Assembly (NCBI GenBank): GCA_002085445.1
Contig: NBMI01000017.1
Coordinates: 24,630-88,629, forward strand
Direction of reading: 5' to 3'
Origin: Candidatus Parabeggiatoa sp. nov. 2
GTDB taxonomy: Bacteria > Pseudomonadota > Gammaproteobacteria > Beggiatoales > Beggiatoaceae
DNA: 64,000 nucleotides
Shown: piece by piece, positions 13,921 through 34,388 of the stretch
How the letters are laid out: each line of letters opens with the position of its first letter
Numbering within the stretch: position 1 is the stretch's first letter
The notes under the pieces: generated by a model
What the model was told of the DNA's origin: nothing
Seen by the model: the letters and a program-made list of their open reading frames with translations, nothing else
Databases searched by the model: none
Position numbers and translations under genes: made by a program

Positions 13921-14155
13921 TTCAGTTAATCGTTCACAGTTAATCGTTCACAGTTATCAGTTTTCTTTCAGTGAACAGTGTAAACTGAAAAACGGATAAC
14001 TGAAAAACTGAATTCTCGGAATCTTTTTTTAGGCACAAAAACTGATTCCGAGAACTGAAAAACTGATAACTGAAAAACTGATAACTGAAAAACTGATAAC
14101 TGAAAAACTGATCACTGAAAAACTGAAAACTGATAACTGTGAACGATCACTGAAA
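13921..14155. repeat. Long ACTGATA/ACTGAAAA heptamer-octamer array
   Basis: AACTGATAACTG and AACTGAAAAACTG units alternate over about 230 bp, with interspersed GTTCACAGTTAATC and TCCGAGAACTGAAAAA variants and some copies in reverse orientation near 13921-13965. The array ends abruptly at a paralogous gene fragment at 14163. Confidence 0.85.
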
Positions 14156-14162
14156 AGTATTC

Positions 14163-14274
14163 CAACAAACCGTCACCAAGGGCAAATTAAATGCCGTTGT
14201 TGCATTAACACGCCCCGGCGTAAAATGTGATAACATGGTTCAACGTAAGGCGGAAGTGATTCAATCTATACTTT
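14163..14274 (+). pseudogene. C-terminal fragment of a paralogue of the 14518-16497 gene
   Basis: The plus strand reads QTVTKGKLNAVV, ALTRPGVKCDN, MVQRKAEVIQSI. The end of the downstream 659-residue protein reads QTATKGELNTIA, SLLRPGVKCDN, DIRHRAEVIQTI, so about two thirds of residues match. The fragment has no start, is cut on the left by the heptamer array, and runs on without the expected stop. It is the leftover of a tandem duplicate whose body was replaced by repeats. Confidence 0.8.
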
Positions 14275-14517: not shown

Positions 14518-16497
14518 ATGGCAAGCATGTTCCAAAAAAACGTTATTTTACAGGTAGTTGCTTATGTGGTCGCAACCCTGTTGTTGTGGGCCGGGCTGAG
14601 TTTTGCGCCAAGTTATGCTGACGAGGCGGAGGTGACATACTATGCTTTTGTCACGCACAAGCTTGACGGAGAAAGCTTGTGGAAAACGGCCTATCAATTT
14701 CCACTATTGCGTCCGGGTATTTATCGTTTCCAAATTGTCATGTTCCCCAAGTTGCTTGAGGGTAAGTCACCAAATTGGTATGCGTTGCGGGGAGAAATTG
14801 AGTTTGAAACTGATCCTGGGGGGGGGGTTAAGGTCAAAAAGCGACATACATTAGAAGATCAAGAAGAAACTTCCGGTCTTTGGGCAATCGCAGAAACCGC
14901 ACAAAACGCACCCCAAAATAATTGGGCAGCTATAAGACAAGAAAAATTGCAGCCCATAATTGAGCAAATGACAAAATTACGCAGTAGTGGTTCTCCCGAT
15001 CCAAATCTCATGCGTTTCCTTGTACTTAATCAAAAAGTAAAGGACACTTCTTGGCAATCGTATGATGGTAGTAAAAACTATCGTCTCTTTCGACTTCATT
15101 ATTTAGAGGCAGATGATCTCAACAACAAGTATAAAAATGCACTTTCGCGTTTTCTCAATCCGGGCGAAGAGCCAACCACTGACATCGAGCAACTTCAAGA
15201 ATGGGTGGACGAGCAAGACAGTTTTAAATCGGCCGGTTATTTGGGGGAAGCTGACGACAAACACAAGGATTTTTACGGGGCGTTTAAAACCTGGTTTAAC
15301 CAGTTGAATTTATCCCAGCTTGACGAAGGCAATGGGGAAGAGAGTTCCTCGTGGGTGTGGCTATTTTTGGCCGTTTTGTTCGTGGTTATCGTTGCAGTTA
15401 TCGGCCGAGAGGTTTGGCTACCTGCTGAAAAACCACCGTATCGTCTTGATTATGAAGATGACGACGAGACAGAAGAAGGCACTAAAAAACCCGGTTTCAT
15501 CAACCAACTAATAAAACAAACCGCCGCTACCATTGGCAACCGGACTACCAAACCTTCCAACTACGTGTCGAAAAATGAATTGAAGTCGTTAAGGAATGAA
15601 TTAGCAAACTCTAATAATGTCCAGCCATTGGAAAAACGCTTAACTAAGTTGGAAAAGGAATTTTCTTCAGTAAATCATCACATAAAGCAACAACTCGAGA
15701 TGATGAATAAAAAGCTGATAGAATTAGAAAAAAACCCCGCACCGAGTAACCGTGGCGGGAATCAAGTCTCGTCCGCTTCCATGATGTATTCTTACGTGTC
15801 GAAAGCCGAATTTGCTGATGCCGTAGAAAAAGTGATACGGCAAAAACTGCTCGCCCAGACAGAAAAGTTACAAAACATTTCAAAAAGTGAAAGTGTTGAA
15901 AACATTGTCAGACAACAACTGAATCTTTATTTTGGCACCGATCAATTCCAGAGAACTGTGGCCGATCAGCTTGAATTCTCAACAAAAACAAACCCTTATC
16001 TGAAAGATAAAACACCAGCACCAGCACGGCCCAAAAAGGCACTTCAAGCACCGCCGGAGACAAAACCCACAGTCAACACAGCGGCCGAGCCAATCCAAGA
16101 ATCGCGGCCGCCTAATGCCACCACCAACGACGTGATTGACAAAATAAAAACCGTCTTATTGAGTATGAAATCAGTAGAAGAAGCCGCACTCGACACGCTG
16201 GATGCTAACGTCGATCCATGCACCTTTGTGACAAATGTCGTGGCTAACTGCTTGAAACTGAATCAGTCGGCGACACACTACCAGCGTTTGGATCGCAGCA
16301 TTCAAGAAATCACTGGTGGCAAGGTTTCTCTGATTATCCCCAATGTTGGAGAAGACATCCGTCAAGAAGAACACAATGCGATGTCTACCCAAACCGCTAC
16401 CAAAGGCGAGCTGAACACTATCGCAAGCTTACTACGCCCCGGCGTCAAATGTGATAACGACATCCGACACCGGGCTGAGGTTATTCAAACGATATGA
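14518..16497 (+). CDS. Exported/membrane coiled-coil protein of unknown function
   Basis: I do not recognise the family. The 659-residue protein has an N-terminal signal-like segment (residues 8-30, ending PSYADEA), a predicted extracytoplasmic domain up to about 275, one transmembrane helix near 278-298 (WLFLAVLFVVIVAVIG), then an acidic cytoplasmic stretch, coiled coil around 345-430, a proline/alanine-rich linker, and a conserved C-terminal domain that also survives as the fragment at 14163-14274. GGAGA lies about 9 nt before the ATG. A 40-codon ORF overlaps its stop by 4 nt, then comes a terminator. Its position near the SrfB-like, GTPase and VWA genes suggests, but does not prove, a joint role. 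Confidence 0.8.
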   Translation: MASMFQKNVILQVVAYVVATLLLWAGLSFAPSYADEAEVTYYAFVTHKLDGESLWKTAYQFPLLRPGIYRFQIVMFPKLLEGKSPNWYALRGEIEFETDPGGGVKVKKRHTLEDQEETSGLWAIAETAQNAPQNNWAAIRQEKLQPIIEQMTKLRSSGSPDPNLMRFLVLNQKVKDTSWQSYDGSKNYRLFRLHYLEADDLNNKYKNALSRFLNPGEEPTTDIEQLQEWVDEQDSFKSAGYLGEADDKHKDFYGAFKTWFNQLNLSQLDEGNGEESSSWVWLFLAVLFVVIVAVIGREVWLPAEKPPYRLDYEDDDETEEGTKKPGFINQLIKQTAATIGNRTTKPSNYVSKNELKSLRNELANSNNVQPLEKRLTKLEKEFSSVNHHIKQQLEMMNKKLIELEKNPAPSNRGGNQVSSASMMYSYVSKAEFADAVEKVIRQKLLAQTEKLQNISKSESVENIVRQQLNLYFGTDQFQRTVADQLEFSTKTNPYLKDKTPAPARPKKALQAPPETKPTVNTAAEPIQESRPPNATTNDVIDKIKTVLLSMKSVEEAALDTLDANVDPCTFVTNVVANCLKLNQSATHYQRLDRSIQEITGGKVSLIIPNVGEDIRQEEHNAMSTQTATKGELNTIASLLRPGVKCDNDIRHRAEVIQTI

Positions 16498-16616
16498 CAA
16501 ACTCAAAATACCGTCAATACTTGTGCCATCTGAGTCAAGCACCGTTGAGTAACCAAGCCAATCGGCGTGGAAACAGAGATTATTTTGAAGAAGAACCTTA
16601 TAAAGATTATGATTAA
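16494..16616 (+). CDS. Small coupled ORF, 40 aa, unknown
   Basis: The ATG overlaps the stop of the 659-residue gene (ATGA), the classic arrangement for translational coupling. The product is 40 residues, polar, and ends in an acidic, aromatic tail (YFEEEPYKDYD). It stops 23 bp before a strong intrinsic terminator, so it fills exactly the space between the upstream stop and the transcript end. No family is recognised. It could be a small partner of the membrane protein, or a fortuitous ORF. Confidence 0.5.
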   Translation: MTNSKYRQYLCHLSQAPLSNQANRRGNRDYFEEEPYKDYD

Positions 16617-16639
16617 CGGGCCCGATTAAAACCTCCAGA

Positions 16640-16674
16640 AACCTCCAATGTTTACAAAACATTGGAGGTTTTTT
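16640..16674 (+). terminator. Intrinsic terminator after the 14518 operon
   Basis: A perfect 14-bp inverted repeat (AACCTCCAATGTTT / AAACATTGGAGGTT) with a 3-nt loop is followed by TTTT. A second weaker hairpin (AAGGTTTACCAAACCTT, then AGAGGTTTTT) follows at 16684-16713. Confidence 0.85.
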
Positions 16675-16827
16675 CCGCAAATATCCAAGGTTTACCAAAC
16701 CTTAGAGGTTTTTAGCAAGACGATATACGGAACGTACATATGCCCGCTCATTAGAAATGCATCAGATCGCGTCGAAAATTCGCCTAAATCTTCATCAGGG
16801 GCACTCAAAAATGCCTATAAAAATCCG

Positions 16828-16863
16828 TTTATTCCCAAAATCCGTTGTACTCTCACGATAACA
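16828..16863 (+). promoter_or_regulatory. 36-bp leader shared with the GTPase gene at 25995
   Basis: The 36 bp directly before the trhP ATG (beginning TTTATTCCCAAAATCCG and ending ATAACA) recur with a single mismatch 3 bp before the ATG of the dynamin-like GTPase (25999-26034, minus strand). Similarity stops upstream in both cases. It replaces a normal Shine-Dalgarno region and may be a mobile leader or a regulatory/5'-UTR motif. The core TCCGTTGTACT also recurs in the 39-bp repeat near 62590. Confidence 0.7.
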
Positions 16864-18126
16864 ATGAAAAAACCAGAACTACTCTCACCCGCCGGCACCC
16901 TCAAAAACATGCGCTACGCCATCGCCTACGGTGCCGACGCCGTTTATGCTGGGCAACCGCGTTACAGCCTACGAGTGCGTCAAAACGACTTTAATAAACT
17001 CAATAACTTAGAACGAGGCCTCCAACAGGCCCACGCCCAAGGCAAAAAATTCTATGTCACCACCAATATTTTACCCCATAACGCCAAACTAAAAACCTTT
17101 ATCGCCGACATAACGCCCATCATCGAAATGCAGCCCGACGCGCTAATTATGGCTGATCCCGGCTTAATTATGCTAGTGCTTGAACGTTGGCCTCAAATAC
17201 CCATTCACTTATCCGTGCAAGCCAACACCATGAATTACGCCGCCGTCAAATTTTGGCAACAGCTTGGCATCACTCGCATCATCCTATCGCGTGAACTCTC
17301 ATTAGAAGAAATCGCCGAAATTCGCCAACAATGCCCCGACATAGAACTAGAAGTCTTTATACATGGCGCCTTATGTATCGCCTATTCCGGCCGCTGCCTA
17401 CTCTCAGGCTATATCAATCACCGCGACGCCAACCAAGGCACTTGCACCAATGCCTGTCGCTGGAATTACAAACTGCATCAAGCCAAAGAAGATGAATCGG
17501 GCATCTATTTATTAGAAGAAAAAGATCGCCCCGGTAAATACATGCCCATCTTTGAAGATGAAAACGGCACTTATATTATGAATTCCAAAGACTTACGCGC
17601 TATTCAACAAGTAGGCCGCTTAATGGAAATTGGGATAGATTCACTTAAAATAGAAGGGCGGACAAAATCTCATTACTATGCAGCGCGAACCGCGCAAGTT
17701 TATCGCCAAGCCATTGACGACACGGTGGCAGGTAAACCCTTTGATAAAAAACTGATGGCCGAACTAGACAAATTAGCCAACCGCGGCTACACAGAAGGCT
17801 TTTATCGCCGCCATCAGCCTTCTGAATCTCAAAACTATCAAAACTACCACATCGGCGGATCAAATAACACTCAACAATTTGTGGGAGAAGTGTTAGGGCA
17901 TGACGAGAAAACGGGGCTATTAGAAATAGCCGTCAAAAATCATTTTGAACTCGGAGACAACTTAGAACTCATGCGCCCCCAAGGAAATTTACACTTTACC
18001 TTAGAACACCTTGAAAATCAACAAGGTGAAAATATCACCGTAGCACCCGGTTCAGGACATACAGTGCGAGTTCGCGCCCCAGCATCAGACGAAGTGGCGT
18101 GTGGGCTACTGCTCAAAGAATTATAA
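16864..18126 (+). CDS. trhP: Peptidase U32 family tRNA hydroxylation protein
   Basis: It belongs to the U32 group that includes E. coli YegQ/TrhP, which takes part in prephenate-dependent hydroxylation of U34 in tRNA. The protein starts MKKPELLSPAGTLKNM and shows the family signature around residues 165-200 (EVFIHGALCIAYSGRC, LSGYINHRDANQGTC), with the cysteines expected for an Fe-S site, then NSKDL and SLKIEGR. A C-terminal beta-barrel domain follows from about 335. At 420 residues it is a little shorter than E. coli YegQ. The open frame extends 72 codons further upstream through terminator hairpins, but homology starts at this ATG. It is a single gene with an unusual leader shared with another gene. 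Confidence 0.9.
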   Translation: MKKPELLSPAGTLKNMRYAIAYGADAVYAGQPRYSLRVRQNDFNKLNNLERGLQQAHAQGKKFYVTTNILPHNAKLKTFIADITPIIEMQPDALIMADPGLIMLVLERWPQIPIHLSVQANTMNYAAVKFWQQLGITRIILSRELSLEEIAEIRQQCPDIELEVFIHGALCIAYSGRCLLSGYINHRDANQGTCTNACRWNYKLHQAKEDESGIYLLEEKDRPGKYMPIFEDENGTYIMNSKDLRAIQQVGRLMEIGIDSLKIEGRTKSHYYAARTAQVYRQAIDDTVAGKPFDKKLMAELDKLANRGYTEGFYRRHQPSESQNYQNYHIGGSNNTQQFVGEVLGHDEKTGLLEIAVKNHFELGDNLELMRPQGNLHFTLEHLENQQGENITVAPGSGHTVRVRAPASDEVACGLLLKEL

Positions 18127-18131
18127 ATAGT

Positions 18132-18380
18132 TCCAGGGGCGTTGCCCCTGGCTTTAATAATACGCCCCTTCAGGGCTAATAGAGATTTTAAAGTCAGCCC
18201 CTTTGGTACGAGATTAATATAGTAGTAGGCGCTTTTTTGCGTGCGTTTGTAGTAGGTGCTTTAGCGCCTAAGTTTGTAGTAGTCGCTTTAGCGACTTAAT
18301 CTTTATGTGAGTTGTGGCTAAATAAAATACCCACACAAAAAACTTTTTTTCTCTATGGGTATATTATTTTCACGCTCCTC
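18132..18380. repeat. Dispersed hairpin repeats after trhP
   Basis: The stretch holds one CCAGGGGCGTTGCCCCTGG palindrome, then GTAGTAGGCGC / GTAGTCGCTTTAGCGAC units related to the 27-bp array at 19.3 kb. A block from GTGGCTAAATAAAATACCC to TTCACGCTCCTCCC (18313-18377) recurs inverted at 58275-58360. I see no gene. Confidence 0.65.
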
Positions 18381-18524
18381 CCTTAGCTTTCAACCAAACT
18401 TATCTAGCTTCGCTTGAGACGACAGTTTATCTCGTTTCGCTCGGAACGAAAGTTTATCTCGCTTCGCTCGTTACGGCGTTTCGGTAACTGTGCTTAAGCG
18501 AGATTACGGCTTGTGCGGTTGGAA

Positions 18525-18633
18525 TTGAGGGCCATCGCACGGTTTTAATCAATCAGTTTTTGAACATTTTAACTTTGATTGATAACTCATTGATGTGATT
18601 GATTTAACAATAAAATTAACGCGATGGCCCTAG
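18525..18633. repeat. AGGGCCATCGC / GCGATGGCCCT terminal-inverted element
   Basis: Eleven-bp inverted ends (AGGGCCATCGC and GCGATGGCCCT) enclose an AT-rich, itself roughly palindromic core (GATTGATAACTCATTGATG). It is a long version of the AGGGCCA family and has no coding capacity. Confidence 0.65.
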
Positions 18634-18749
18634 AGGGCCGATTACGGCCTAAAATCCTATTTCTTCAATAAATCTGATTTCTCTTCGGCCGATGACGGTT
18701 AAAAACAATTAACTCGTTGAAAAACCTAATCTTTTTAAGATAAACTGAC

Positions 18750-18901
18750 TCAAGCATCGCACGTTCCAAAAGTGTTTTCCTCTGTAAAAACATCACGTAG
18801 CCATCCGATAAACGCTTGCATTTCCGGTGATTACCGGTTAATTAAATAATCGGCATTAATGGTACTGACTAACGCTTGTCCTGGTTTGCCAAGCCAACCA
18901 A
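18750..18901 (-). pseudogene. C-terminal remnant of a probable LysR-type regulator
   Basis: The minus strand reads WLGKPGQALVSTINADYL, then INR, a stop, SPEMQAFIGWLRDVF and TEENTFGTCDA before a stop codon. The spacing and the P-x-x-x-A-F-x-x-W-L ending resemble the effector-domain C-terminus of GcvA-like LysR regulators. An internal stop is present, and the sequence is cut on its 5' side by the MITE that begins at 18902. Family assignment is by eye. Confidence 0.4.
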
Positions 18902-19078
18902 GTATACTCAACGTGGCCATAACTTGGAATTTTATGACGGTTTAATGACGTATTATTGCAGCCAGGGGCGATGCCCCTGGCTATTAAGATCGCCCCGTTG
19001 GGGCTTGCAGGGGCAACGCCCCTTTCGTTATTTTGGTTTCTCAAAAAGTCCAATTTGTTCCCATCTTGAGTATATATA
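18902..19078. mobile_element. MITE-like element with TATACTCAA termini
   Basis: The left end TATACTCAACGTGG pairs with the right end whose reverse complement is TATACTCAAGATGGG. Internally it carries a CCAGGGGCGATGCCCCTGG palindrome. A second member with the same ends and the internal motif TTTCTCAAAAAGTCCAATTT lies at about 26356-26565. No transposase is encoded. It truncates the LysR-like remnant. Confidence 0.6.
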
Positions 19079-19111
19079 CACTCAGTAGTTGAGAATGGCT
19101 CTAAAAGGCGA

Positions 19112-19302
19112 TCAATCGCCGATGACGAACTGGCCCACTAAAGGCGAACTCTCATCGACGAAGAACCGGCCCACTAAACGCGAACGCTCGCCGATGACGA
19201 ACTGGCCCACTAAAGGCGAGCGTTCGCCGATAACGAACCAGCCCGCTAAAGGCGAACTCTCGCCGATGACGAACTGGCCCACTAAAGGCGAACTCTCATC
19301 GA
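19112..19302. repeat. 36-bp tandem repeat, about five units
   Basis: Units of the form GATGACGAACTGGCCCACTA then AAGGCGAACTCTCGCC repeat without spacers and stay open on both strands (12-residue period, SPMTNWPTKGE on plus). Copies differ by several substitutions. The related CGCCTACGACAAACTGGCCC unit occurs near 55880-56040 and 58150-58260. Confidence 0.8.
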
Positions 19303-19305
19303 CGA

Positions 19306-19845
19306 CGACAAACTTAGGCGCTAAAGCGCCTACTACAAACGCACGCAAAAAAGCGCCTACTACAAACTAAGGCGCTAAAGCGCCTACTACAAACTAAGGC
19401 GCTAAAGCACCTACTACAAACTTAGGCGCTTTTGCTCCTACTACAAACTTAGGCGCTAAAGCACCTACTACTAACTAAGGCGCTAAACAACTCCTACAAA
19501 CTTAGGCGCTAAAGCGCCTACTACTAACTAAGGCGCTAAACAACTCCTACAAACTTAGGCGCTAAAGCACCTACTACAAACTAAGGCGCTAAAGCGCCTA
19601 CTACTAACTTAGGTGCTAAAGCGCCTACTACTAACTTAGGTGCTAAAGCGCCTACTACTAACTTAGGCGCTAAAGCACCTACTACAAACTTAGGCGCTAA
19701 AGCACCTACTACAAACTTAGGCGCTAAAGCACCTACTACAAACTTTGGCGCTAAAGCGCCTACTACAAACTTAGGCGCTAAAGCGCCTACTACAAACATT
19801 AGATTAAGTCGCTGAAGCGACTACTACAAACTAAAAATTAAGTCG
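19306..19845. repeat. 27-bp tandem array built on an AGGCGCTAAAGCGCCT palindrome
   Basis: About 20 copies of AGGCGCTAAAGCGCCT plus CTACAAACTT-type linkers run up to the stop of the SrfB-like gene. Because 27 is divisible by 3, both strands show long open frames (LGAKAPTTN on plus, GALAPKFVV on minus). There is no ribosome binding site, and members also occur singly (18227-18300, 58400-58490). I therefore read it as a DNA/RNA hairpin array, not a gene. Confidence 0.85.
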
Positions 19846-22323
19846 CTAAAGCGAGCCGCTCCGACGTGTTTGTGAAACAATGCGTTTCAAAAAGCCCGCC
19901 GGCTCACAGTCAATTCTTCCAGTATCATTGAAGTTATCCACAATGAAATCATTGCCACCAGGCGCCCATTCTGACATAAAAACCTTCTTATGGGAAGACA
20001 TATGTACCGAGTAATCGTCAAGAATATTGAGCTTCACTTCGTGGCATTCGGTGTGCGAGTGGTTGGATAAATTGGCAATCACTTGGGCAACACCCTCCTC
20101 GCGGAAAGCATGACCAATACGCACGTCTACAGCAGGTTCGACTGCTACCGTAATCGTTTGGGGCTTGCTGTCGCCGGGCCGAATGTGGATTTGATTGAGT
20201 TGGAGGCCATTAGGCGTTTCAAGTACAGTACCAATATAGCGATTAAAGATAGGCTCATCTGCCAAGGTGGCGAAACGGACGTGATCGCCAAAACGGAACC
20301 GTTGCGCTCCACAAACCACCGCTAATTTGTCCATGTTTTCAAAACCCAGTAGTTTGAGAGAATCCGGCAAAATTTGGTCAAGGGTGCGAATACGATGCGG
20401 TGGCAATTGCGTCGATTCAACAATCATGTCCTTGATAAATGGCAGTCTGGTAGAACGTCCGCTGAGAATCACGATATGCGGTGTCCGTTGATCCGCGCTG
20501 AGATTATCGCACAGTTCTTCCAAATACAGAAAAATATCCATAAAACCCGGTTCGCCATTAGTTTCTAAGGACTGCGTATCGGCCTCTACCCATGCCTTTA
20601 ACATTTCTATTGTTAACATCAATGGCTCTTCTTGTTCCACTTGATCCTCTCCCACGCCAAAGAATTCTAGTTCAAAAGCGCGGATGAGTTCGCGTTTATC
20701 CTCAAGTGGTTCAAAGGCGCGAATGAGATTGTATTCATCCCTTGGTTTGAGTACCCATTGAGCTTCTTCGGAAGCTAATGCCGCTTTAGCGGCTTCCGCT
20801 AATTCTGAGATTTTTGAGACCGCTTTTCGTTTGTAAGCGATTGTAAACTCACGGTTTTTAGAATTTTTCTTGAAATCCAGTGATTCTTGGATACCATACT
20901 TTTCTCGAATGTACTCATGGATGGCGGTGGCAATGATATGTGAAAGACGATCCCCGGCGCGATTGAAACGCATAGATTCAATCATTTTAAAGCTGACATC
21001 GACTGATTTGTCCTCCGATTTGACGGCCCACTGAATGTCCACACAGGCGATGTCAGTGGAACCGCCCCCGATGTCTACAACCAACATCCGTAGTTCTGGT
21101 GTTCCGTGCATATTGCCCATAGAACTGGCCGTCAGTGCTAAGTTATCTGTCCCAAAATGGAATAAGGTTTCCCAAAGCACATAAGCCGCTACCGCCACTG
21201 GCTCACTGCAAATCAGTTCCACCACGAATTGGTCTTTGATAGCTTTTTCTTGGACGAGAATCTGGGCGGCGGCTTTCTCCACCATCTCCTTGAAGAGCGT
21301 TTTATCCATTTCCCGCCATGTCAGTGGATAGGTGAGCATGAAACGGGCTATCTGCGGATAAAATTCGGGCGCGTCTGAGACAGAGTGCGGATTAGTGAGT
21401 GAGGAGAGGACTTGTTGGAACATTTGATTTAAGGTGTGTTGTACAAACTCCAACATAGGCGATAAACCGTCACGTTGCCCCACGAGGCCTCGGAATTTCA
21501 TAGTCGGTTCGTCCGCCTTAAGATGTTCTTGCCAACGGCGAACATACTTTTTGGGCGCATAAAGATAAGTCGCCATCGGGGCCTCATTAATAAGTTCTTC
21601 GGCGCGATCTCCCATGACGATCCAAGGCGCATCGGCCTCCTTGCGATCTACGCGCAATACGATCATGTTAGAACGTAGGATATTTCGCTGATTGTCGGGA
21701 CGTTCTTGGTAGCGAGGATCAAAGGGATTGGTGGCTTGTACAATGCGAGCCTGTAGTGGGCCGGCACCATTTTTTGAAAAGATGAATGAGCTACCACTAT
21801 TGCCGAAATCCATGATCAGGCTGCCAGTCTCGTTGCGAGCCTTGGCGTGTTCTTCTACATAAATATCGGCCAAATGACGACGCTTGCGAAATAGGAAGAA
21901 GCCCGTTTCCAAAAGCACGGGAAGCTTGCGAAATAGGAAGAAGCCCGTTTCCAAAAGCACGGGAATCTTATTTTTGACTTGGGCACCGGCCCCGTTTTGG
22001 GTGTCAATCACTAAGTCTAGGTGAATTTCCTCACCAGTACGAGTCAAACGAAAAAACACAAATTCATTGATATCACAAGCAATCCAGTCAGTTCTATCAG
22101 CCGATTCAATCTCTTGGTTGCAGGCGATGTGATCCTTAATCAATCGTATTACTTCGTTTTTAGCTTGCTTTGTTGACACTTGGGCTGCCAACTTCTTAAG
22201 TTTGTCCCAATGCTGGTCGGCCGGCTTCAGAGAAGTCGCAAACTCTCGACAAATCTGAATACCGGTGTTGGGGAGTACAATTAATTGATAAACATGATGA
22301 TTAGTCTGTTTAGTATTTTTCAT
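19846..22323 (-). CDS. SrfB-like Hsp70/actin-fold ATPase
   Basis: This 825-residue protein has the signatures of the sugar kinase/Hsp70/actin ATPase fold: an N-terminal phosphate motif (LIMDFGNSGSSF near 170), the second phosphate motif VVDIGGGSTDIA near 417, and ILSGRSTRLPFI near 619, which resembles the adenosine region of SrfB virulence-factor proteins. SrfB normally approaches 1000 residues. The protein ends 'MKNTK...RRSGSL', with the stop at the edge of the 27-bp array. Residues about 120-147 contain a perfect 14-residue tandem duplication (PVLLETGFFLFRK twice). AAGGAAT precedes the ATG. Downstream of the GTPase and VWA genes on the same strand, it probably works with them. Its role is unknown. 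Confidence 0.75.
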   Translation of the reverse strand: MKNTKQTNHHVYQLIVLPNTGIQICREFATSLKPADQHWDKLKKLAAQVSTKQAKNEVIRLIKDHIACNQEIESADRTDWIACDINEFVFFRLTRTGEEIHLDLVIDTQNGAGAQVKNKIPVLLETGFFLFRKLPVLLETGFFLFRKRRHLADIYVEEHAKARNETGSLIMDFGNSGSSFIFSKNGAGPLQARIVQATNPFDPRYQERPDNQRNILRSNMIVLRVDRKEADAPWIVMGDRAEELINEAPMATYLYAPKKYVRRWQEHLKADEPTMKFRGLVGQRDGLSPMLEFVQHTLNQMFQQVLSSLTNPHSVSDAPEFYPQIARFMLTYPLTWREMDKTLFKEMVEKAAAQILVQEKAIKDQFVVELICSEPVAVAAYVLWETLFHFGTDNLALTASSMGNMHGTPELRMLVVDIGGGSTDIACVDIQWAVKSEDKSVDVSFKMIESMRFNRAGDRLSHIIATAIHEYIREKYGIQESLDFKKNSKNREFTIAYKRKAVSKISELAEAAKAALASEEAQWVLKPRDEYNLIRAFEPLEDKRELIRAFELEFFGVGEDQVEQEEPLMLTIEMLKAWVEADTQSLETNGEPGFMDIFLYLEELCDNLSADQRTPHIVILSGRSTRLPFIKDMIVESTQLPPHRIRTLDQILPDSLKLLGFENMDKLAVVCGAQRFRFGDHVRFATLADEPIFNRYIGTVLETPNGLQLNQIHIRPGDSKPQTITVAVEPAVDVRIGHAFREEGVAQVIANLSNHSHTECHEVKLNILDDYSVHMSSHKKVFMSEWAPGGNDFIVDNFNDTGRIDCEPAGFLKRIVSQTRRSGSL
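21878..21961. repeat. 42-bp in-frame tandem duplication inside the SrfB-like gene
   Basis: The sequence CTTGCGAAATAGGAAGAAGC and its continuation to AAAAGCACGGGAA is present twice in a row, adding 14 residues. The two copies are almost identical, so the event is recent. Confidence 0.85.
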
Positions 22324-22339
22324 GTAAAAATTTATTCCT

Positions 22340-22664
22340 TGGGGCGCAATTTATGATGGAGTCCAAAGCTTTAGCTTTGGACTGGGGTATTAAATCTGAA
22401 TTTATGATGGAGTCCAAAGCTGGGGTGGTGAAAATAATGATTAATTATTGATTAATGATTAATGATTAATGAATTAAAGAATGTTTTTAAAATAATAAAA
22501 CTTCAAAAGGAATAAAAATGGGATCAAGTTTTAGAACCAAAGGAACCTCCTTTTCATTAAATCTGTCGTCAAACGATCAAGTTGTGTTATCCCCAATAAA
22601 TTTCAAATCACAGAACACTGATAACTGATAACTGATAACTGATAACTGATAACTGATAACTGAT
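22340..22664. repeat. Truncated TGGGGTGGTGAAAA MITE, hairpin repeats and heptamers
   Basis: Two copies of TTTATGATGGAGTCCAAAGC flank a GCTTTAGCTTTGGACT stem. At 22421 a TGGGGTGGTGAAAA end begins. It continues through TGATTAA heptamers and the internal GATCA-GTTTTAGAACC segment seen in the 35692-35850 element, but its right end is lost near 22560. ACTGATA heptamers (six copies) occupy 22616-22664. Confidence 0.65.
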
Positions 22665-23446
22665 CCTGACACGGTAGGCGCGTGCGTTTTGGAGGAGGGT
22701 AATTGCCCGCCGGATTGATGACTTTTTTTGTAAAAATGAAATTTCATAAAAGCGCCTACTTGAATCTTCGATGTTTTGCACACAATTTTTTTTGGTAAAG
22801 CTAAAAATATAAACGGCACAGTACCGCTACCTATCAGTATATCCAACTGGATGAGTATTCATAATAAGAGACGGTAGCCATTAATACGCAAGACTCACGA
22901 TAATATTAAGATGAATTTTGGGCTAGTCTCAGTTTCAATAGAGACAACCAGTCCGACATTTTTTTTGTGTACTCGTAAAATATAACTGACTGTTTTATAA
23001 GCAATAATTAAACTATTTTTTAAGAATAGTCCATATATTATTAATTTAAAGAGTAGTCGTTATAATAGTAAACCGTATTTTTTATGTGGTTAAAACCAAA
23101 ACACGCGGCCTTTCAGAAGGTATTTCACGGCGTATTTTAGCCGTATTTTATAAAAATACGCGATTTTAGTTATTCTATAGAATAATGAGTCATTTTAATA
23201 AGATAAAACAGGCGATTGTTAGAAAATTTACGGGGGTTATAATTTTTTCTAGTTATTATTTTAGAATAACTAAATGCTTGTTTTAAATAAGAATTTTAAA
23301 ACAATTCTGTCTCCTCAACCCATGAACGAGTCTAACCAACGTTTATAACCATACCCCACCCACTCCCACACACGAAGCAACTCACTGATGCTTGGGCCTT
23401 TTGGAACATAAAAAAAAATGAAAAATGAAAAATGAAGAATGAACAT
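22665..23446. other. Gene-free AT-rich stretch
   Basis: No gene is recognisable on either strand. The sequence is very AT-rich. It includes imperfect palindromes such as CGTATTTTAGCCGTATTTTA (near 23131), and AGAATAACTAAATGC opposite TATTCTATAGAATA near 23173. It could carry promoters for neither flank that I can defend. Confidence 0.4.
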
Positions 23447-23755
23447 CGGGTGTGTCCCACTTGTCCAAGTAGCAAGTTTTTATTGATAGGCCATCAATCA
23501 AATCAAGTGACTAAATTCGCCAACATGGCCCTCAAAAAACCGCTTTGGAAAGACACCTTAGTATTTTTCATTTTTCATTTCTCAAGGGCCATCAATCAAA
23601 TCAAGTGACTAAATTCGCCAACATGGCCCTCAAAAAACCGCTTTGGATTTTTCATTTTTCATTTTTCATTTTTCATTTCTCAAGGGCCATCAATCAAATC
23701 AAGTGACTAAATTCGCCAACATGGCCCTCAAAAAACCGCTTTGGAAAGACACCTT
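23447..23755. repeat. Three tandem copies of the AGGGCCA palindrome element separated by TTTTTCA heptamers
   Basis: The first copy has the GGGTGTGTCCCACTTGTCC front. All three carry GGCCATCAATCAAATCAAG, then ATTCGCCAACATGGCCCTC and AAAAAACCGCTTTGG, near-identical. Heptamer tracts (CATTTTT) fill the joints. Tandem multiplication shows that element and heptamers expand together. Confidence 0.8.
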
Positions 23756-23859
23756 ATACCAATTCTGGATTGAAACACTTGTTATGGTGTCGGTGGATTG
23801 CTGCGCGTAATCTGCCCCTAGCCATTTTCAAAACATGAAATTCAATTAAGAACTGGTAT
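23756..23859. mobile_element. Small MITE-like element with ATACCAATTCT ends
   Basis: The left end ATACCAATTCTGG pairs with the right end AGAACTGGTAT over a 104-bp span. The interior reads GTGTCGGTGGATTGCTGCGC. Only one copy is recognisable in this window, so its mobile nature is inference from the inverted ends. Confidence 0.45.
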
Positions 23860-23907
23860 TAGTATTTTTCATTTTTCATTTTTCACTTTTCATTTTTTTC
23901 AAGTTTC

Positions 23908-25995
23908 TTACCTGACGACTTCATATTTTTCACAGGCGACTTTTCCCACTTGTTGTGCCTTAGTTAACTTATTGATAATAGTGCAAATCTGCGGTTTTTC
24001 TTCCGCACGCTGCTCGAAGCGGCCCTGTCCGTCGTTCATCACTTCTTCAATCAACAAATGATAGAGAATTTCTCGGCAATGAAGTTTTAGGCAGTGAGTC
24101 ACTAAATCGGCGCTGTTGGAAAAACCTTTTTTGGGTGGCCTCAATTGAGCAGTCGTATAGCCCCAACGTTCCGCCCACAGTTTTTCCTGACTATCAAAGT
24201 ATTGACTGAACAGTGCCGACGCTTCGGCCGACATGTTGCTCTTTCCAATAATGCTTTCTTCCACTAAGGCACACATTTCATGGAAGTCATCAGCCACCCA
24301 ACTTTTGCTGATATTGCGTTTATTATGCCTTTCGGCGATCTTTTCAATGTCAGAATCAAGGGCCTTGGTGGCAAATTCCTCAATGCTATGCAAGCTTTCA
24401 GGATCGGATAGGCAACTGAGCAAAGCCGTCCGCACAGTGTCCTGCATGGCTCCCTGATTCATCGTTCCTTCTTGATCATAATAAGTGGTCAACAATTCCA
24501 GAAGTTCTTTAATGGCCGCGAGGAGGCCGGTGTTCACCAGATATTTACGCAATAGCAACGCTGGGCCTTTTTCTTGGATCAGACTTAAGAGTTGTCGCAC
24601 TAAAAAGCCTTGCCCCCGATCTTCTGGATTCGCCAGCGCGTCGAGGTTTTCCTTGAAAGTGTCTACCAAGTTTAATTCAGACAACGTCTTATAGCCAATG
24701 TTGTCCGGTTCCACCCATTTTTCCATAATGGGGCGGTATTTTTGGTAGGCCTCTTCATAAGGCCCCGTGGTATTGCTTTCTACATAAGATTTAGCATCCA
24801 GAAAACAAATTCGAGCCGGTTTAATCCGGCCGCGGGGACTCATTTTCTGTAACATGTTGTCTTCTAGGGTGGTAGAAAAATGATCGCCTTCGCGTTGAGC
24901 CGTCTCAGCCTCTTCATATTTATTTCGGATGTCCGGGTTGGTGAAATAAATGCTCATGCCATTAACCGCTAAGATGAGACGCTCAGATAAGCTTTCCATC
25001 GCTGCCGGGCCGCATTCTCTTTCAATCGTTTTCCACAATACCGCGAAATCGGATTGTCGCCCACATAAGACAAGATGCACCACGATATCCAATTCATCAT
25101 TCTTCCACAGTTGAAGGGCAATATGGTCACTTTTCTTTTCTAAACAATGACGTAGCACTTCGTCTTTGACGCTACCATTGACGGCTAACCCTGGTGTATC
25201 TACAAAAATAAGGGACGCTAATTGTTCTTCTGATAAGCCGCTCCAGTCCTTGATTCGTTCATAAGAGTCGCGCAAGCTGACATCCTTGACGATGGCTCTG
25301 AGTTGTAAGGCGTTATAGGAACGCTCGTCTTGAGTGATGATTGGATTGGTCTCTATCGCGGCCGACTGTTCCTTGACGGTGAGTGCGCGGATAAATTGAC
25401 GATCGCGGCTTTTCTCTGAAGGCACTTGGTAAGGTTGCGAAAAGGGACGCAATTCTAATTGGTTAGGAAAACGGAACTGTGCAATGTCGTCAGCGGGAAA
25501 GGCGACATCGGTGCCGTCTATATCAACGCCCTCTTCTGGGTAATTAACCAGAATCTTGTCTTGTTCATTTTGTTCCTCTACCTCTGGATGTCTCATTAAG
25601 GACTTAATCTGTTCGACGTTCCAAGAATGAACGATGACTTCTTCTAACTCTGCGGAATTGGGCGGCGCGTAGCTAATGCGTAGTGATTGCGCCGTCGTAT
25701 CGGTGACATCGGTGACTAGCCAGCCTCGTTGCGAGAGACTGGGGAACATTTCGTCCATGATTGTCGTCTTGCCGTGCCCACTGGAACCAATGATGGCGCA
25801 AGTGATTTTGCCGTCACAGGGTTCTTGTAGATGCAATGATTGGGTGACTCGAACAATATTATCAAAGTCGGTTTTGACCGAAGTTGAGGTTTCAAGCAAT
25901 GACCGAAAACTCGGTATTTTGGGAAGAATCTTGATCGCTTCAAGTAAGATGGCTCGTACACCATTGATGGTTTTTAGTATGTTGTCTTGAATCAT
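23908..25995 (-). CDS. Dynamin-like P-loop GTPase (SrfC-like)
   Basis: The 695-residue protein has a helical N-terminus, a P-loop GSSGHGKTT at residues 70-78, a DTPG switch motif near 265 and a hydrophobic strand LILAVNG in the G4 position, followed by a long alpha-helical C-terminal half. This is the plan of bacterial dynamin-related or SrfC-type GTPases. Such proteins oligomerise and often act at membranes, but no transmembrane helix is seen. G4 lacks a clear NKxD, so nucleotide specificity is uncertain. The ATG is preceded by the 36-bp leader also found before trhP, not by a clear Shine-Dalgarno. Its neighbours on the same strand are the VWA gene upstream and the SrfB-like gene downstream. 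Confidence 0.75.
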   Translation of the reverse strand: MIQDNILKTINGVRAILLEAIKILPKIPSFRSLLETSTSVKTDFDNIVRVTQSLHLQEPCDGKITCAIIGSSGHGKTTIMDEMFPSLSQRGWLVTDVTDTTAQSLRISYAPPNSAELEEVIVHSWNVEQIKSLMRHPEVEEQNEQDKILVNYPEEGVDIDGTDVAFPADDIAQFRFPNQLELRPFSQPYQVPSEKSRDRQFIRALTVKEQSAAIETNPIITQDERSYNALQLRAIVKDVSLRDSYERIKDWSGLSEEQLASLIFVDTPGLAVNGSVKDEVLRHCLEKKSDHIALQLWKNDELDIVVHLVLCGRQSDFAVLWKTIERECGPAAMESLSERLILAVNGMSIYFTNPDIRNKYEEAETAQREGDHFSTTLEDNMLQKMSPRGRIKPARICFLDAKSYVESNTTGPYEEAYQKYRPIMEKWVEPDNIGYKTLSELNLVDTFKENLDALANPEDRGQGFLVRQLLSLIQEKGPALLLRKYLVNTGLLAAIKELLELLTTYYDQEGTMNQGAMQDTVRTALLSCLSDPESLHSIEEFATKALDSDIEKIAERHNKRNISKSWVADDFHEMCALVEESIIGKSNMSAEASALFSQYFDSQEKLWAERWGYTTAQLRPPKKGFSNSADLVTHCLKLHCREILYHLLIEEVMNDGQGRFEQRAEEKPQICTIINKLTKAQQVGKVACEKYEVVR

Positions 25996-25998
25996 GGT

Positions 25999-26034
25999 TG
26001 TTATAGTGAGAGTACAACGGATTTTGGGAATAAA
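25999..26034 (-). promoter_or_regulatory. 36-bp leader shared with trhP
   Basis: This is the second copy of the leader at 16828-16863, differing by one base and again placed immediately before a start codon. It contains TCCGTTGTACTCTCAC. Sequence further upstream is unrelated between the two genes. Confidence 0.7.
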
Positions 26035-26055
26035 CGTCTTTTTTCAAAGGTTTAA

Positions 26056-26265
26056 AATTTGAGTCGGCCAACTTTAGTTTAGCCGGAGTCCAAACCGGAG
26101 TCCAAACTTTAGTTTGGCAGTCCTCCAAACTGGAGTCCAAACTTTGGCAGGAGTCCAAACTTTAGTTTAGCAGAGTAGTGATACGCAGGCTCCTGTTATT
26201 TACCTATTTTTGGCAAGTTTTTGGACGCTCGATTTTGAGGGCCATAAAATACTTTGGAAGTATTC
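26056..26265. repeat. CCAAACTTTAGTTTGG hairpins and an inverted GGGCCATAA element
   Basis: GGAGTCCAAACTTTAGTTTGG-type hairpins occur about five times (26084-26170). They lead into a truncated copy of the GGGCCATAACTTAATTTGGA element in reverse (26153-26265), the family seen complete at 42391-42528. Confidence 0.65.
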
Positions 26266-26274
26266 AAATTAAGC

Positions 26275-26565
26275 CTGGGGCGATGCCCCAGGCTTTATTA
26301 ATGTCGCCCCGTTGGGGCTTGAAGATAGTTACATTAGGTTATGAAAAGTTTCTCAAAAATATACTCAACGTGGGCATAACTTGGATTGCCTGGTAGATAC
26401 ACAGGCTTTATTAATGTCGCCCCGTTGGGGCTTGAAGATAGTTACATTAGGTAGATACACAGGCTTTATTAATGTCGCCCCGTTGGGGCTTGAAGATAGT
26501 TACATTAGGTTATGAAAGGTTTCTCAAAAAGTCCAATTTTTTCCATTTTTGAGTATATACTGAAC
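26275..26565. mobile_element. TATACTCAA MITE with duplicated GTCGCCCCGTTGGGGC segment
   Basis: TATACTCAACGTGGGCATAA at 26358 and a right end near 26565 reading TTTTTGAGTATATA define a second member of the 18902-19078 family. A segment ACAGGCTTTATTAATGTCGC through TTGAAGATAGTTACATTAGG is present two to three times in tandem from 26285 to 26510. Confidence 0.55.
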
Positions 26566-26720
26566 GTACTTCTTTGGCCGTGAAAATGATTTGTGTTCTG
26601 ATATGTAAGAGAAACAGGTGAGATTAGGCGTTATCAAGATTAGGCGTTATCAAAATTCATTCACAATTCGTTTACTTCGTTCTCTTCGTTCTCTTCGTGA
26701 TCGTCAACAATAACTTTTTT

Positions 26721-28004
26721 TTACGGATTTCCAAAGTGACCGTTAAGTGCCGCCGCTAGTTCGCTCAGTTTTTGTTCTAGTTCATTGATAGGTTTAGGGT
26801 TTACGCCACTGAATACACGGGGCGTTAGGGTATTGCCAACAATCTCGACTCCCTGAAATTGGCTCAGGATCGGATTGACGTCTTGAAGCATCTCAGCAAC
26901 GCTGGTATCTTCACCGTCGGTAAAAATCAGCAGGGTTGTCGGTTTTTGGTGCGCGGCGACTTCTTTAGCAGCCAGTTCAATGCCCGCACGTAAATTGGTG
27001 CCACCTTCGGCCTTGATATTGTCCAAAAAGAAAATCAGTTGTTGCCCCGTTTCGTTGTTTACTTCTTTGATACCCCCTAAGGCACTGGTTGCCGAAAAAT
27101 GGTAGGCAATGACATTGGCGTAGTGTTTGGCGAAAAATGATTTTCTCATCTTTTCGAGGGTTTTCCTCGCCTCGGCTTGAACCGCCGAAAAATGGGGCTC
27201 CATACTGGAGCTTTTATCCATAATAATAATAAAACTTTGGGTTTCGATTGGCACGAAAATCTTTGGAGGGCTACAGTCCCTAAGCGAAAATAGCAAAAGC
27301 AATAGTAAGAGTAAAGCTAACAGCCAGATTTTACGACGACGGCGCAACCGTAGTTGATTAGCCCATTGCAAAAGGCCGTCCATTCCCGTTTGTTGCTCAA
27401 AAGTCTTTGGAGACTCAATGACTAAAGCCGATTTTTGCACGGCCCGCACAATGTGACTTAGTTGATTAGCCCATTGCAAAAGGCCGTCCATTCCCGTTTG
27501 TTGCTCAAAAGTCTTTGGAGAGTCAATGACTAAACCCGATTTTTGCACGGCCCGCACAATGTGACTGTGGCACTCGTGAGCGGCCTCGGTTTCATTGGAA
27601 TAACGGCCGGTTGGATCGAGATACAAACCAAATTTGACGCGGCTTCCCGACTCATTGACTCCGCGGTGAATTTCATCGGACAACACAATGTTGGAAAGGG
27701 CCGGGGTTTCTCGCAATCGAATTAGCGATTGGACGAGATTGACCACATCCTGCCGACACTGGCGCTCTGGCTCAGGGTTTTCGCCGCGAGGATCAGCGGC
27801 TTGGAGTCGGACACCGCTGATTTTGGTACTCACTTGGGCAATCTCATCCTTATTAATGGAAAAACGCCCACGATGCCAAGCCGCATGTCCCAACGGAAAG
27901 AAAAATTCTGAGACGATATCAGGCTGGCGCATACGATCACGAAAAATGTTTTCGTCAACCGCGGCGCTTTTTTGAGCCGGCATCTCTTTTAGGTTATTTT
28001 TCAT
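26721..28004 (-). CDS. Membrane-anchored VWA-domain protein
   Basis: The 427-residue protein has a cytoplasmic N-terminal region, one very hydrophobic transmembrane helix near 230-247 (LLALLLLLLLLFS), and a von Willebrand A domain with an intact metal-ion-dependent adhesion site: DKSSSM near 263, the Thr loop, and TDGED near 363. The N-terminal part contains a 36-residue perfect-to-near-perfect tandem duplication (SHIVRAVQKS...WANQL twice). VWA proteins of this kind usually scaffold complexes, often with ATPases. Here the partners are probably the GTPase and the SrfB-like ATPase downstream on the same strand. The start lies next to GTAGTTTGTAGTTT repeats with no clear ribosome binding site. 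Confidence 0.8.
   Translation of the reverse strand: MKNNLKEMPAQKSAAVDENIFRDRMRQPDIVSEFFFPLGHAAWHRGRFSINKDEIAQVSTKISGVRLQAADPRGENPEPERQCRQDVVNLVQSLIRLRETPALSNIVLSDEIHRGVNESGSRVKFGLYLDPTGRYSNETEAAHECHSHIVRAVQKSGLVIDSPKTFEQQTGMDGLLQWANQLSHIVRAVQKSALVIESPKTFEQQTGMDGLLQWANQLRLRRRRKIWLLALLLLLLLLFSLRDCSPPKIFVPIETQSFIIIMDKSSSMEPHFSAVQAEARKTLEKMRKSFFAKHYANVIAYHFSATSALGGIKEVNNETGQQLIFFLDNIKAEGGTNLRAGIELAAKEVAAHQKPTTLLIFTDGEDTSVAEMLQDVNPILSQFQGVEIVGNTLTPRVFSGVNPKPINELEQKLSELAAALNGHFGNP
27351..27566. repeat. 108-bp in-frame tandem duplication inside the VWA gene
   Basis: Two consecutive 108-bp copies (period measured from TAGTTGATTAGCCCATTGC) differ at only a few bases and add exactly 36 codons. The Gly/Ala and Asp/Glu differences between the two protein copies show that slight divergence has begun. 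Confidence 0.9.
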
Positions 28005-29906: not shown

Positions 29907-30317
29907 ATGAATGAATTTATTTGGCCCATTCGCGTCTATTACGAAGACACAGATGCCGGTGGCTTTGTTTATCATACGAATTATTTGAAATTTATGGAAC
30001 GTGCCCGCACAGAATGGTTGCGTGAATTGGGGTTTGAGCAAACGCAACTGAGAGCGCAATATAATCTAGTATTTGTGGTACGGCAACTTTCCATAGATTA
30101 TTTAAAAACCGCTTTATTCAATGACTTACTGCATATCAATACCAGCCTAACCCATATGGGCAAAGTCCGCATGACATTGACACAACAAGTGTTGCGCGAC
30201 GCGGAAATTTTATGTACGGCCGTCGTTAAAATCGCGGCTATCAATGTTATCAAGCAGCGCCCACAAGCGATTCCACCGGACATTCTCAAAGCATTACGCC
30301 TTATCAGTGATCAGTGA
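29907..30317 (+). CDS. ybgC: Acyl-CoA thioesterase YbgC, hot-dog fold
   Basis: It is the Tol-Pal-associated thioesterase that acts on short or long acyl-CoA or ACP at the inner membrane. The 136-residue protein has the family signature YYEDTDAGGFVYHTNYLKFMER at residues 10-31, cut here in two: YYEDTDAGG with the catalytic Asp, and VYHTNYLKFMER. It is the first gene of the tol-pal cluster, as in E. coli. The last codons (RLISDQ, stop) and the stop itself come from a heptamer tract (TCAGTGATCAGTGATCAG), so the native C-terminus has been replaced or extended. Confidence 0.95.
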   Translation: MNEFIWPIRVYYEDTDAGGFVYHTNYLKFMERARTEWLRELGFEQTQLRAQYNLVFVVRQLSIDYLKTALFNDLLHINTSLTHMGKVRMTLTQQVLRDAEILCTAVVKIAAINVIKQRPQAIPPDILKALRLISDQ

Positions 30318-30375
30318 TCAGTTGTCAGTGATCACTCTGATAACTGATAATAAATCAGTGCTCACTGATCATTGA
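30301..30375. repeat. TCAGTGA/ACTGATA heptamers at the ybgC 3' end
   Basis: CAGTGATCAGTGATCAG, then CACTCTGATAACTGATAA. The first units lie inside the ybgC frame and provide its stop. Confidence 0.75.
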
Positions 30376-30534
30376 AAAAACGGCTATATACTTTGCATTG
30401 CGTTTTTGTCATTTCGACTTGAGGATAAATCTTGTTGAAATGGCTCAATTTCTCGCGATGTGAGACATGACAAAAAACTTCTTCGATGATGGTGTCTAGT
30501 ATAAGTCTAAGGCTTTTCATTTTTCATTTTTCAT

Positions 30535-30720
30535 TAGTGATGAGCCTCTTGCAAAACTCATTAAAAATGACTATTCCTACTTTGTCAGATTTAATGTAAC
30601 TCATTGATTTCTACAGAATGGCCCCCAAAAGGGCCTCTATATAAATCAATTACTTAGGTGTAATGTGACAAAGTAGAACTATTCGCCGTTGGCGAAAAGA
30701 CTTTTGCAAGTTCCTCACTA
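30535..30720. mobile_element. MITE-like element with GAGCCTCTTGCAAAA ends
   Basis: The left TAGTGATGAGCCTCTTGCAA and right TTTTGCAAGTTCCTCACTA ends are imperfect inverted repeats. An inner palindrome runs from CTACTTTGTCAGATTTAATG to GGTGTAATGTGACAAAGTAG. The whole 186-bp block lies between ybgC and tolQ and codes for nothing. TTGCAAAA termini are seen in several IS families, but no transposase is present. Confidence 0.6.
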
Positions 30721-30821
30721 AAAAACTGATAACTGAAAAACTGATAACTGATAACTGAAAAACTGATAACTGAAAAACTGATCACTAAAAACTGATCACG
30801 GAAATAACTGAAAACTGATAA
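30721..30821. repeat. Heptamer/octamer array before tolQ
   Basis: AACTGATAACTGAAAAACTG units run from the MITE up to the tolQ ATG, leaving no recognisable ribosome binding site. Confidence 0.75.
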
Positions 30822-31485: not shown

Positions 31486-31526
31486 TAAAATTCCCCCGTG
31501 AACAAATCCCCCTAATTAATAATTAA

Positions 31527-31795: not shown

Positions 31796-31814
31796 GTTAT
31801 TTCGTCAACGACTA

Positions 31815-31837
31815 CTACTGATAACTGATAACTGAAA
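31815..31837. repeat. Heptamers abutting the tolR start codon
   Basis: CTGATAACTGATAACTGAAA ends exactly at the tolR ATG, so the translation initiation region consists of repeat sequence with no Shine-Dalgarno motif. Confidence 0.8.
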
Positions 31838-34375: not shown

Positions 34376-34388
34376 GTTGGGAGAACTT

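Follow-up and report, generated by a model that had tools for sequence, protein, structure and literature searches.

A predicted Hsp70-type ATPase of the SrfB family, a dynamin-like GTPase and a VWA protein predicted to span the membrane: a gene trio of Candidatus Parabeggiatoa shared across bacterial phyla

What might an SrfB-family ATPase do next to a dynamin-like GTPase and a protein with a von Willebrand factor type A (VWA) domain? The question is raised by a 64,000-nucleotide stretch of the genome of Candidatus Parabeggiatoa sp. nov. 2 (contig NBMI01000017.1, positions 24,630 to 88,629), called the window below and numbered from its first letter. The host assembly (8.45 Mb, 406 contigs) belongs to the same genus as the giant sulfur bacterium Ca. 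Parabeggiatoa sp. nov. 3 (G002). In Pfam both SrfB and its companion SrfC bear the name "virulence factor", and no enzymatic activity of either was found in the open-access literature examined. Three genes on the minus strand of the window, given here in their order of transcription, encode such a set of proteins:

26721..28004, minus strand, VWA gene, 427 aa
23908..25995, minus strand, dynamin-like GTPase gene, 695 aa
19846..22323, minus strand, SrfB-family Hsp70-like ATPase gene, 825 aa

An initial annotation of this DNA had proposed that the three form one system. The open reading frames (ORFs) are consecutive and co-oriented as it had described them, with the correction that they are loosely spaced in the window, where gaps of 1,584 bp (SrfB-like/GTPase) and 725 bp (GTPase/VWA) hold tandem repeats.

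A protein search with the GTPase gave 142 relatives at an expectation value (E) of 0.001 or less among 7,994 scored candidates. The 120 listed relatives supplied 25 sequences which, with the window protein, make up the GTPase alignment (A1, 26 sequences). One scan of genome contigs listed 11 further loci (at least 11 exist), and these are the other loci in all counts given here. They come from Ca. Parabeggiatoa sp. nov. 3, two Verrucomicrobia, six Planctomycetota (including the cultured Rubripirellula obstinata CECT 8602 and a metagenome-assembled genome of Gemmataceae), one Omnitrophota and one unclassified bacterium. The order VWA-GTPase-SrfB, on one strand, was found by tblastn in 12 of 12 loci, the SrfB gene of L007 being cut by the contig end. 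The neighbourhood check thus sustained the idea of a single system, with the trio co-located in 11 of 11 other loci. Beggiatoa relatives, which the initial annotation had named among the expected hosts, were confirmed as such; no cyanobacterial locus, also expected, is among the 11 listed, cyanobacteria not having been searched separately. For the start codons adopted, adjacent genes of all 11 non-window loci either overlap or are separated by no more than 30 bp, and the window is the only one of the 12 with such long gaps within the trio. A thirteenth locus (L004, contig C98 of G020) retains decayed VWA, GTPase and SrfB pieces with stops, in the same order.

The three proteins also appear to have evolved together. 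Their pairwise distances across the 12 loci correlate with r of 0.885, 0.897 and 0.905, and none of 2000 label permutations reached values as high. Seven of 29 VWA relatives share their source and the size of their longest contig (e.g. 11505, 12637 and 20968 bases) with a listed GTPase relative, which suggests that these seven pairs share contigs, one of them being L014 itself. The conservation of the trio across phyla is far beyond chance. Inherited together, tightly packed outside the window and evolving congruently, the three genes are shown, as far as genomes can show it, to be one functional unit.

The trio is sparsely distributed. Among 95 related genomes, with the window's own counted in, two (its own and G002) had a full GTPase and one more a broken piece. 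Among 392 sampled Planctomycetota, four had a full-length GTPase, all already among the 11 loci. Two of 288 sampled Verrucomicrobiota had a trio-type SrfB-like protein (both known already), and four more (G562, G625, G659, G776), of which three were inspected, had distant SrfB-family proteins. The trio is single-copy in all 11 hosts, whose genomes measure 5.0-10 Mb. The SrfB-like tree places Verrucomicrobium L006 in a fork of eight rows together with Planctomycetota, L015 and the window (Shimodaira-Hasegawa-like approximate likelihood ratio test (SH-aLRT) 96) and joins Verrucomicrobium L010 to the Omnitrophota (SH-aLRT 97); SH-aLRT is the only measure of support, many forks are left unresolved and three rows are long-branched. 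The trees mix phyla, and horizontal transfer of the whole trio is the simplest reading. Some candidates were set aside: P-loop-only matches in G120, G182, G202, G212 and G402 (35-62 columns, E 5.5e-5 to 9.3e-4) were taken as generic, and a GTPase-SrfB fusion in L015 proved an artefact of ORF choice, its upstream part being the wrong frame of the GTPase gene.

The VWA protein begins with about 225 residues, of which 36 come from a duplication described below, and continues with one predicted transmembrane (TM) helix and a C-terminal VWA domain (Pfam VWA_2, 33.6 bits against a cut-off of 27). Its N-terminal part gave no convincing Pfam match, and the sole NCBIfam match of the protein at E ≤ 1 was a sortase-target model, far below its cut-off. 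The features that matter here are:

27273..27329, minus strand, predicted TM helix, residues 226-244 (Kyte-Doolittle scan and charge count), with RLRRRRK just before it
27201..27218, minus strand, DKSSSM, the DxSxS core of the metal ion-dependent adhesion site (MIDAS), residues 263-268

The MIDAS residues Asp263, Ser265, Ser267, Thr336 and Asp363 are invariant in 12 of 12 loci (the window reads DKSSSM...GGT...TDGED), and a cysteine at the outer end of the predicted helix is kept in 11 of 12. In 10 of the 12 VWA proteins, Arg and Lys are more frequent in the 15-residue segment ahead of the best hydrophobic stretch than in the one behind it. Because this Arg/Lys-rich flank precedes the helix, the N-terminal part is predicted to lie inside and the VWA domain outside, facing the periplasm. 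The initial description of a membrane VWA protein with an intact MIDAS is in keeping with the VWA_2 match, the invariant MIDAS and one strongly hydrophobic stretch, the TM helix being a prediction. In L010 a second VWA gene, CoxE-like, stands immediately after SrfB (7648-8364).

The motifs from which the initial annotation had recognised the other two proteins were found as described: GSSGHGKT and DTPG in the 695-aa protein, DIGGGSTD and LSGRSTRLP in the 825-aa protein. Those of the GTPase lie at:

25765..25788, minus strand, P-loop GSSGHGKT, residues 70-77 (Gly70, Gly75 and Lys76 invariant in 26/26)
25189..25200, minus strand, G3 motif DTPG, residues 266-269 (Asp, Pro and Gly in 26/26, Thr in 25/26)

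About 165 residues separate the switch-I threonines from G3. Dynamin_N (PF00350) matched the window protein below its cut-off (16 bits against 27), and 22 of the 26 members had a match at E ≤ 0.1, the best at E 6.5e-7. In the predicted structure model a dynamin GTPase fold is flanked by bundle helices. All 43 matches of this model to the PDB at E ≤ 0.001 belong to the dynamin superfamily, the lack of other folds among these structure-alignment rows (VIA-align) not being counted as exclusion. The dynamin-like assignment thus gained support from the model.

The SrfB relationship of the third protein holds on two counts. Pfam SrfB (PF07520) scored 38.5 bits against a curated cut-off of 27.1, in a match that spans profile positions 528-797 of 992 only and not the whole profile, and a profile-profile comparison with three Verrucomicrobial SrfB proteins gave 97.8% over 300 columns. 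PF07520 matched at E ≤ 0.01 in nine of 11 aligned SrfB-like members. The top Foldseek matches of the structure model were DnaK and GRP78/BiP (best E 2e-18), which narrows the suggested actin/Hsp70 fold to the Hsp70 type. Two domains are predicted:

20260..21831, minus strand, Hsp70-like nucleotide-binding domain, residues 165-688, with phosphate-1, phosphate-2 and adenosine motifs
19960..20256, minus strand, beta substrate-binding-like domain, residues ~690-788 (DnaK alignments, moderate predicted local distance difference test (pLDDT) scores)

Invariant in all 11 aligned rows are D172, G174 and N175; D417, G419-G421, S422 and D424; and G622, R623 and R626, which we take to be the phosphate-1, phosphate-2 and adenosine motifs, respectively. 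Some alignments extend up to DnaK residue 503, at a root-mean-square deviation of 8.0-8.8; those with 7krv_B, 7kzi_A and 7kru_B reach residue 500-503 at 8.2-8.8. The protein is thus predicted to be Hsp70-like rather than simply actin-like, its match to DnaK taking in the nucleotide-binding domain and, with less certainty, the beta substrate-binding domain.

If the three proteins work as a unit, what could they do? Their types, an Hsp70-type ATPase, a dynamin-fold nucleoside triphosphatase (NTPase) and a receptor-like VWA protein, lead us to propose that a receptor recruits the NTPases and that an Hsp70-like cycle controls dynamin-like assembly. The trio would then be one inner-membrane machine that reshapes or tethers membrane when the outward VWA domain binds a ligand, a tentative reading that we consider possible without calling it probable, and the likeliest of those weighed here. 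The input would be metal-dependent binding of a ligand sensed by the outward-facing VWA domain. The N-terminal part of the VWA protein would recruit both NTPases to the inner membrane, where an ATP-driven Hsp70-like cycle may load, release or take apart dynamin-like oligomers, much as Hsc70 acts on clathrin coats, and the output would be a change in membrane shape or contact. Most likely, the envelope would be remodelled or guarded in this way.

Several observations weigh against this machine. The charge rule fails in two of the 12 VWA proteins, being reversed in L010, and in L014 the scan chose a VWA strand. The best stretch of the VWA protein in L007, L008 and L009 scores 0.96-1.39, no higher than the soluble partners, so that a hydrophobicity score alone is no proof of a TM helix. 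The GTPase itself has no predicted TM helix, its top 19-residue Kyte-Doolittle mean being 1.08-1.49 in 12 proteins. Its TM-scores to dynamins, in the rows at E ≤ 0.001, are 0.14-0.32 by query length, and such low whole-chain values indicate that only the GTPase-plus-bundle core was matched. Its G4 motif is non-canonical: residues 345-348 read N-G-x-[NS] instead of [NT]KxD (N in 26/26, G in 26/26, N or S in 26/26, at a position inferred from strand order), so that the nucleotide bound by this "GTPase" is not certain. In the SrfB-like protein, Pfam HSP70 (PF00012) reached 8.7 bits, below its cut-off of 20.6, and the structure model has a pLDDT of 70.5, with 160 residues below 50. Experiments on any of the three proteins were not found in the literature examined.

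The same proteins could be arranged differently, as a chaperone or quality-control relay in which the two NTPases assemble, activate or export a VWA-bound partner and the dynamin fold is only a switch. The pairing of a VWA protein with a chaperone-type ATPase would follow the MoxR-vWA logic set out in the available text of PMC7159879, and the predicted beta substrate-binding-like domain would suit a chaperone, as would a possible client in the small protein that is encoded after SrfB in five of 10 loci (see below). The modelled GTPase core is, however, joined to long helices, like that of membrane-acting dynamins, and we consider the relay unlikely. A conflict system of the anti-phage or abortive kind, with the VWA/Hsp70-like pair as the sensor of invasion and the dynamin-like protein as the effector that contains or kills the infected cell at the membrane, would fit the patchy spread (4/392 Planctomycetota; two intact and one broken copy in 95 kin genomes) and the SrfB-like tree that mixes phyla (L006, L010). 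Beggiatoa relatives are filamentous, which would also suit such a role. Hsp70/GrpE/vWA/GTPase neighbourhoods have been proposed as conflict systems in multicellular bacteria, and planctomycetes are described as forming rosettes, in the available text of PMC7159879. Against this stand the single copy in 11 of 11 genomes and the results of PADLOC, in which the one match below E 0.001 fell to the SrfB-like protein and was a weak one, to the candidate model PDC-M61B (17.1 bits, E 4e-4), those to the GTPase and the VWA protein lying at E 0.01-0.04 only. No toxin or nuclease was seen among 10 neighbouring ORFs of four loci and 10 window stretches, the other neighbours not having been scanned. The GTPase had no match in plasmid records or viral contigs, nor the SrfB-like protein in phage records. 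Like the relay, a role in conflict seems to us unlikely, though both are serious rivals.

Could the trio simply be a strict member of srfABC, with the released or cytotoxic role claimed for SrfABC? Membership in the SrfB family speaks for it, as does the order GTPase-then-SrfB, which is common to the Verrucomicrobial SrfC-SrfB pairs. The latter are clear-cut, L083 and L084 scoring 64.8 and 43.2 bits for SrfC (Virul_Fac, PF10139) and 207.1 and 220.8 bits for PF07520. The window GTPase, by contrast, has no PF10139 match at E ≤ 1, and PF10139 is not among the families listed (25 of 40) for the 26 GTPase relatives. Comparison with an SrfC profile (hhalign) gave 40-50% over 48-49 P-loop columns, and a value of 50.5% over 48 columns stood against 0.2-6.1% for six controls; the controls, however, were single sequences, the SrfC profile had five rows, two of them partial, and the comparison is an insensitive one, since a true Dynamin_N protein used as a control (L086) scored only 4.6%. 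The third gene here encodes a VWA protein with a predicted TM helix, for which NCBIfam gave only the sub-cut-off sortase-target model. We regard strict membership as highly improbable.

Returning to the inner-membrane machine proposed above, what would it mean? If SrfB is an Hsp70-type ATPase with a fixed dynamin-fold partner, the function of srfABC would become directly testable, for example in the cultured planctomycete Rubripirellula obstinata. Hsp70 and dynamin proteins cooperate in eukaryotic coat handling, and a chaperone-controlled dynamin would link these two protein classes. Among the matches listed from the open-access literature, titles and abstract starts contained no description of the trio or of a bacterial Hsp70-dynamin pair.

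The window copy of the trio has features of its own. Its intergenic and flanking DNA holds three tandem arrays, and two genes contain in-frame duplications:

19308-19802, tandem array downstream of the trio, 27 bp x 18.4
23489-23756, tandem array between trio genes, 98 bp x 2.7
26289-26510, tandem array between trio genes, 58 bp x 3.9
27351..27566, minus strand, in-frame tandem duplication within the VWA gene, 2 x 108 bp, 2 mismatches
21880..21963, minus strand, in-frame tandem duplication within the SrfB-like gene, 2 x 42 bp, 1 mismatch

The 108-bp duplication is not present in the other 11 aligned loci, and two VWA relatives that are 91-92% identical measure 391 aa, the length expected without it. 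The 42-bp duplication was likewise found in none of the other 10 aligned loci. Compared with Ca. Parabeggiatoa sp. nov. 3, the ratio of non-synonymous to synonymous differences (pN/pS) is 0.23-0.27 across the three genes, with synonymous sites near saturation, and all three look to be under purifying selection.

Upstream of the trio lies a divergent gene that resembles ruvB (by look, no family scan), and beyond it, at 29907-36942, are thioesterase, TolQ/ExbB-, TolR/ExbD-, TolA/TonB-, TolB- and OmpA-type genes. On the downstream side are two genes:

16648-18126, U32-peptidase-family gene, convergent with the trio, between the trio and the 659-aa gene
14518..16497, plus strand, 659-aa gene

The initial annotation had considered the 659-aa membrane protein as a possible fourth part. 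This did not hold up: the gene is on the opposite strand, with the U32-family gene in between, and has no linkage to the trio elsewhere. Counting that of the window, six of 40 genomes contain members of its family. Those of G002 are not on the trio contig, and members also occur in G003, G006 and G022, three genomes in which the searches gave neither a GTPase nor an SrfB-like match; the alignments of the G006 and G022 relatives are confined to the N-terminal half. The protein has two hydrophobic stretches, one N-terminal and one near residue 290, as well as polar or coiled stretches. Its C-terminus (residues 603-655) resembles the GrpE head (hhalign 80.8%, E 1.3e-5 against 22 GrpE sequences), and seven of seven family members scored above all non-GrpE proteins in this comparison; the Pfam GrpE cut-off of 25.8 bits was just reached by one G002 paralogue, the window protein remaining below it at 11.6 bits. 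Because of this resemblance, the 659-aa protein may possibly be linked functionally to some Hsp70, and a membrane-tethered GrpE-like exchange factor would be unusual. A partial second copy of its C-terminus, with a stop, lies just upstream (14145-14270).

Another small gene accompanies part of the trios. Five of the 10 loci with downstream DNA (L006, L009, L011, L012 and L013, and not the window, L005, L008, L010 or L014) encode, after SrfB, a small protein whose N-terminus is hydrophobic and whose C-terminus is conserved; no such gene is present in the window. This C-terminus looks GrpE-like by eye, but the profile comparison gave 0.2% and hmmscan of the five proteins no GrpE match, and GrpE identity was provisionally rejected. 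The 659-aa protein is not its counterpart by profile (0.1%).

How, finally, does the trio compare with systems already described? With srfABC, for which binding of the three proteins to each other was reported in one case in the available text of PMC6950479, it shares the SrfB family, by Pfam and by profile, and a P-loop protein with DxPG beside SrfB. It differs in a GTPase outside PF10139 and in its third gene, whose VWA product has a predicted TM helix and might, as the initial annotation proposed, take the place of SrfA. One SrfBC locus, L085 (1842-4949), encodes SrfC, SrfB, a 400-aa protein and a 1,035-aa protein whose C-terminal part matches HtrA/MarP-type serine proteases, the latter protein being a possible periplasmic partner of the SrfBC pair. 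A related ARRANGEMENTS exists in the window's own family, in G010, where a 913-aa Dynamin_N protein (39.2 bits, cut-off 27) adjoins a 1,333-aa protein that scores 23.1 bits for HSP70 (cut-off 20.6) and 18.7 bits for SrfB (below cut-off). The locus (L086, 2587-13012) comprises four genes, for these two proteins, a 515-aa protein and a 568-aa protein with a P-loop-like start; the SrfB-profile match in G010 (E 1.5e-4) belongs to this cluster and was not counted as a trio. From the trio, the SrfC-SrfB pairs and the G010 pair, it follows that a P-loop or dynamin protein stands beside an SrfB/Hsp70-like ATPase in at least three sequence types. It is tempting to speculate that a dedicated Hsp70 drives a dynamin-like GTPase under a transmembrane VWA receptor and that the SrfB-SrfC operons and the L086 pair are diverged members of this class, a broader proposal that we hold to be rather doubtful. 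If true, it would offer a bacterial counterpart of Hsp70-driven coat handling and a first biochemical logic for SrfABC.

The conflict neighbourhoods of PMC7159879, as far as described in the available text, resemble the trio in bringing together a TRAFAC-type GTPase, Hsp70, membrane and, in some themes, vWA components, and in including planctomycetes and verrucomicrobiae among their hosts. The window proteins differ in having no match to DO-GTPase, GAP1 or FNIII at E ≤ 1 and HSP70 only below its cut-off. DO-GTPase matched one of the 26 GTPase members (E 0.016), and GAP1 had no match among the 14 window stretches scanned with Pfam, whose coverage of all GAP1 models was not checked. The main text of that article, as available, never mentions SrfB, SrfC or dynamin. 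Similarly, the FtsZl1-vWA-GTPase system, predicted to remodel membranes (Makarova and Koonin 2010, PMC2875224), combines, in the available text, a cytoskeletal-type NTPase with a vWA protein of mostly intact MIDAS and a diverged GTPase, linked to the membrane. Its NTPase is of the tubulin type and its GTPases are said there to keep G4, whereas the window has an Hsp70-like ATPase and no tubulin/FtsZ match among the 14 stretches scanned. The bacterial dynamin-like proteins (SynDLP, BDLP, IniA and the 5owv/5oxf pair) share the GTPase core fold and flanking helices with the window protein, which differs from them in its sub-cut-off Dynamin_N match, altered G4, spacer of ~165 residues and conserved Hsp70-like neighbour. 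The trio is thus related to the known SrfBC and Hsp70/GTPase/vWA systems, as a variant of them.

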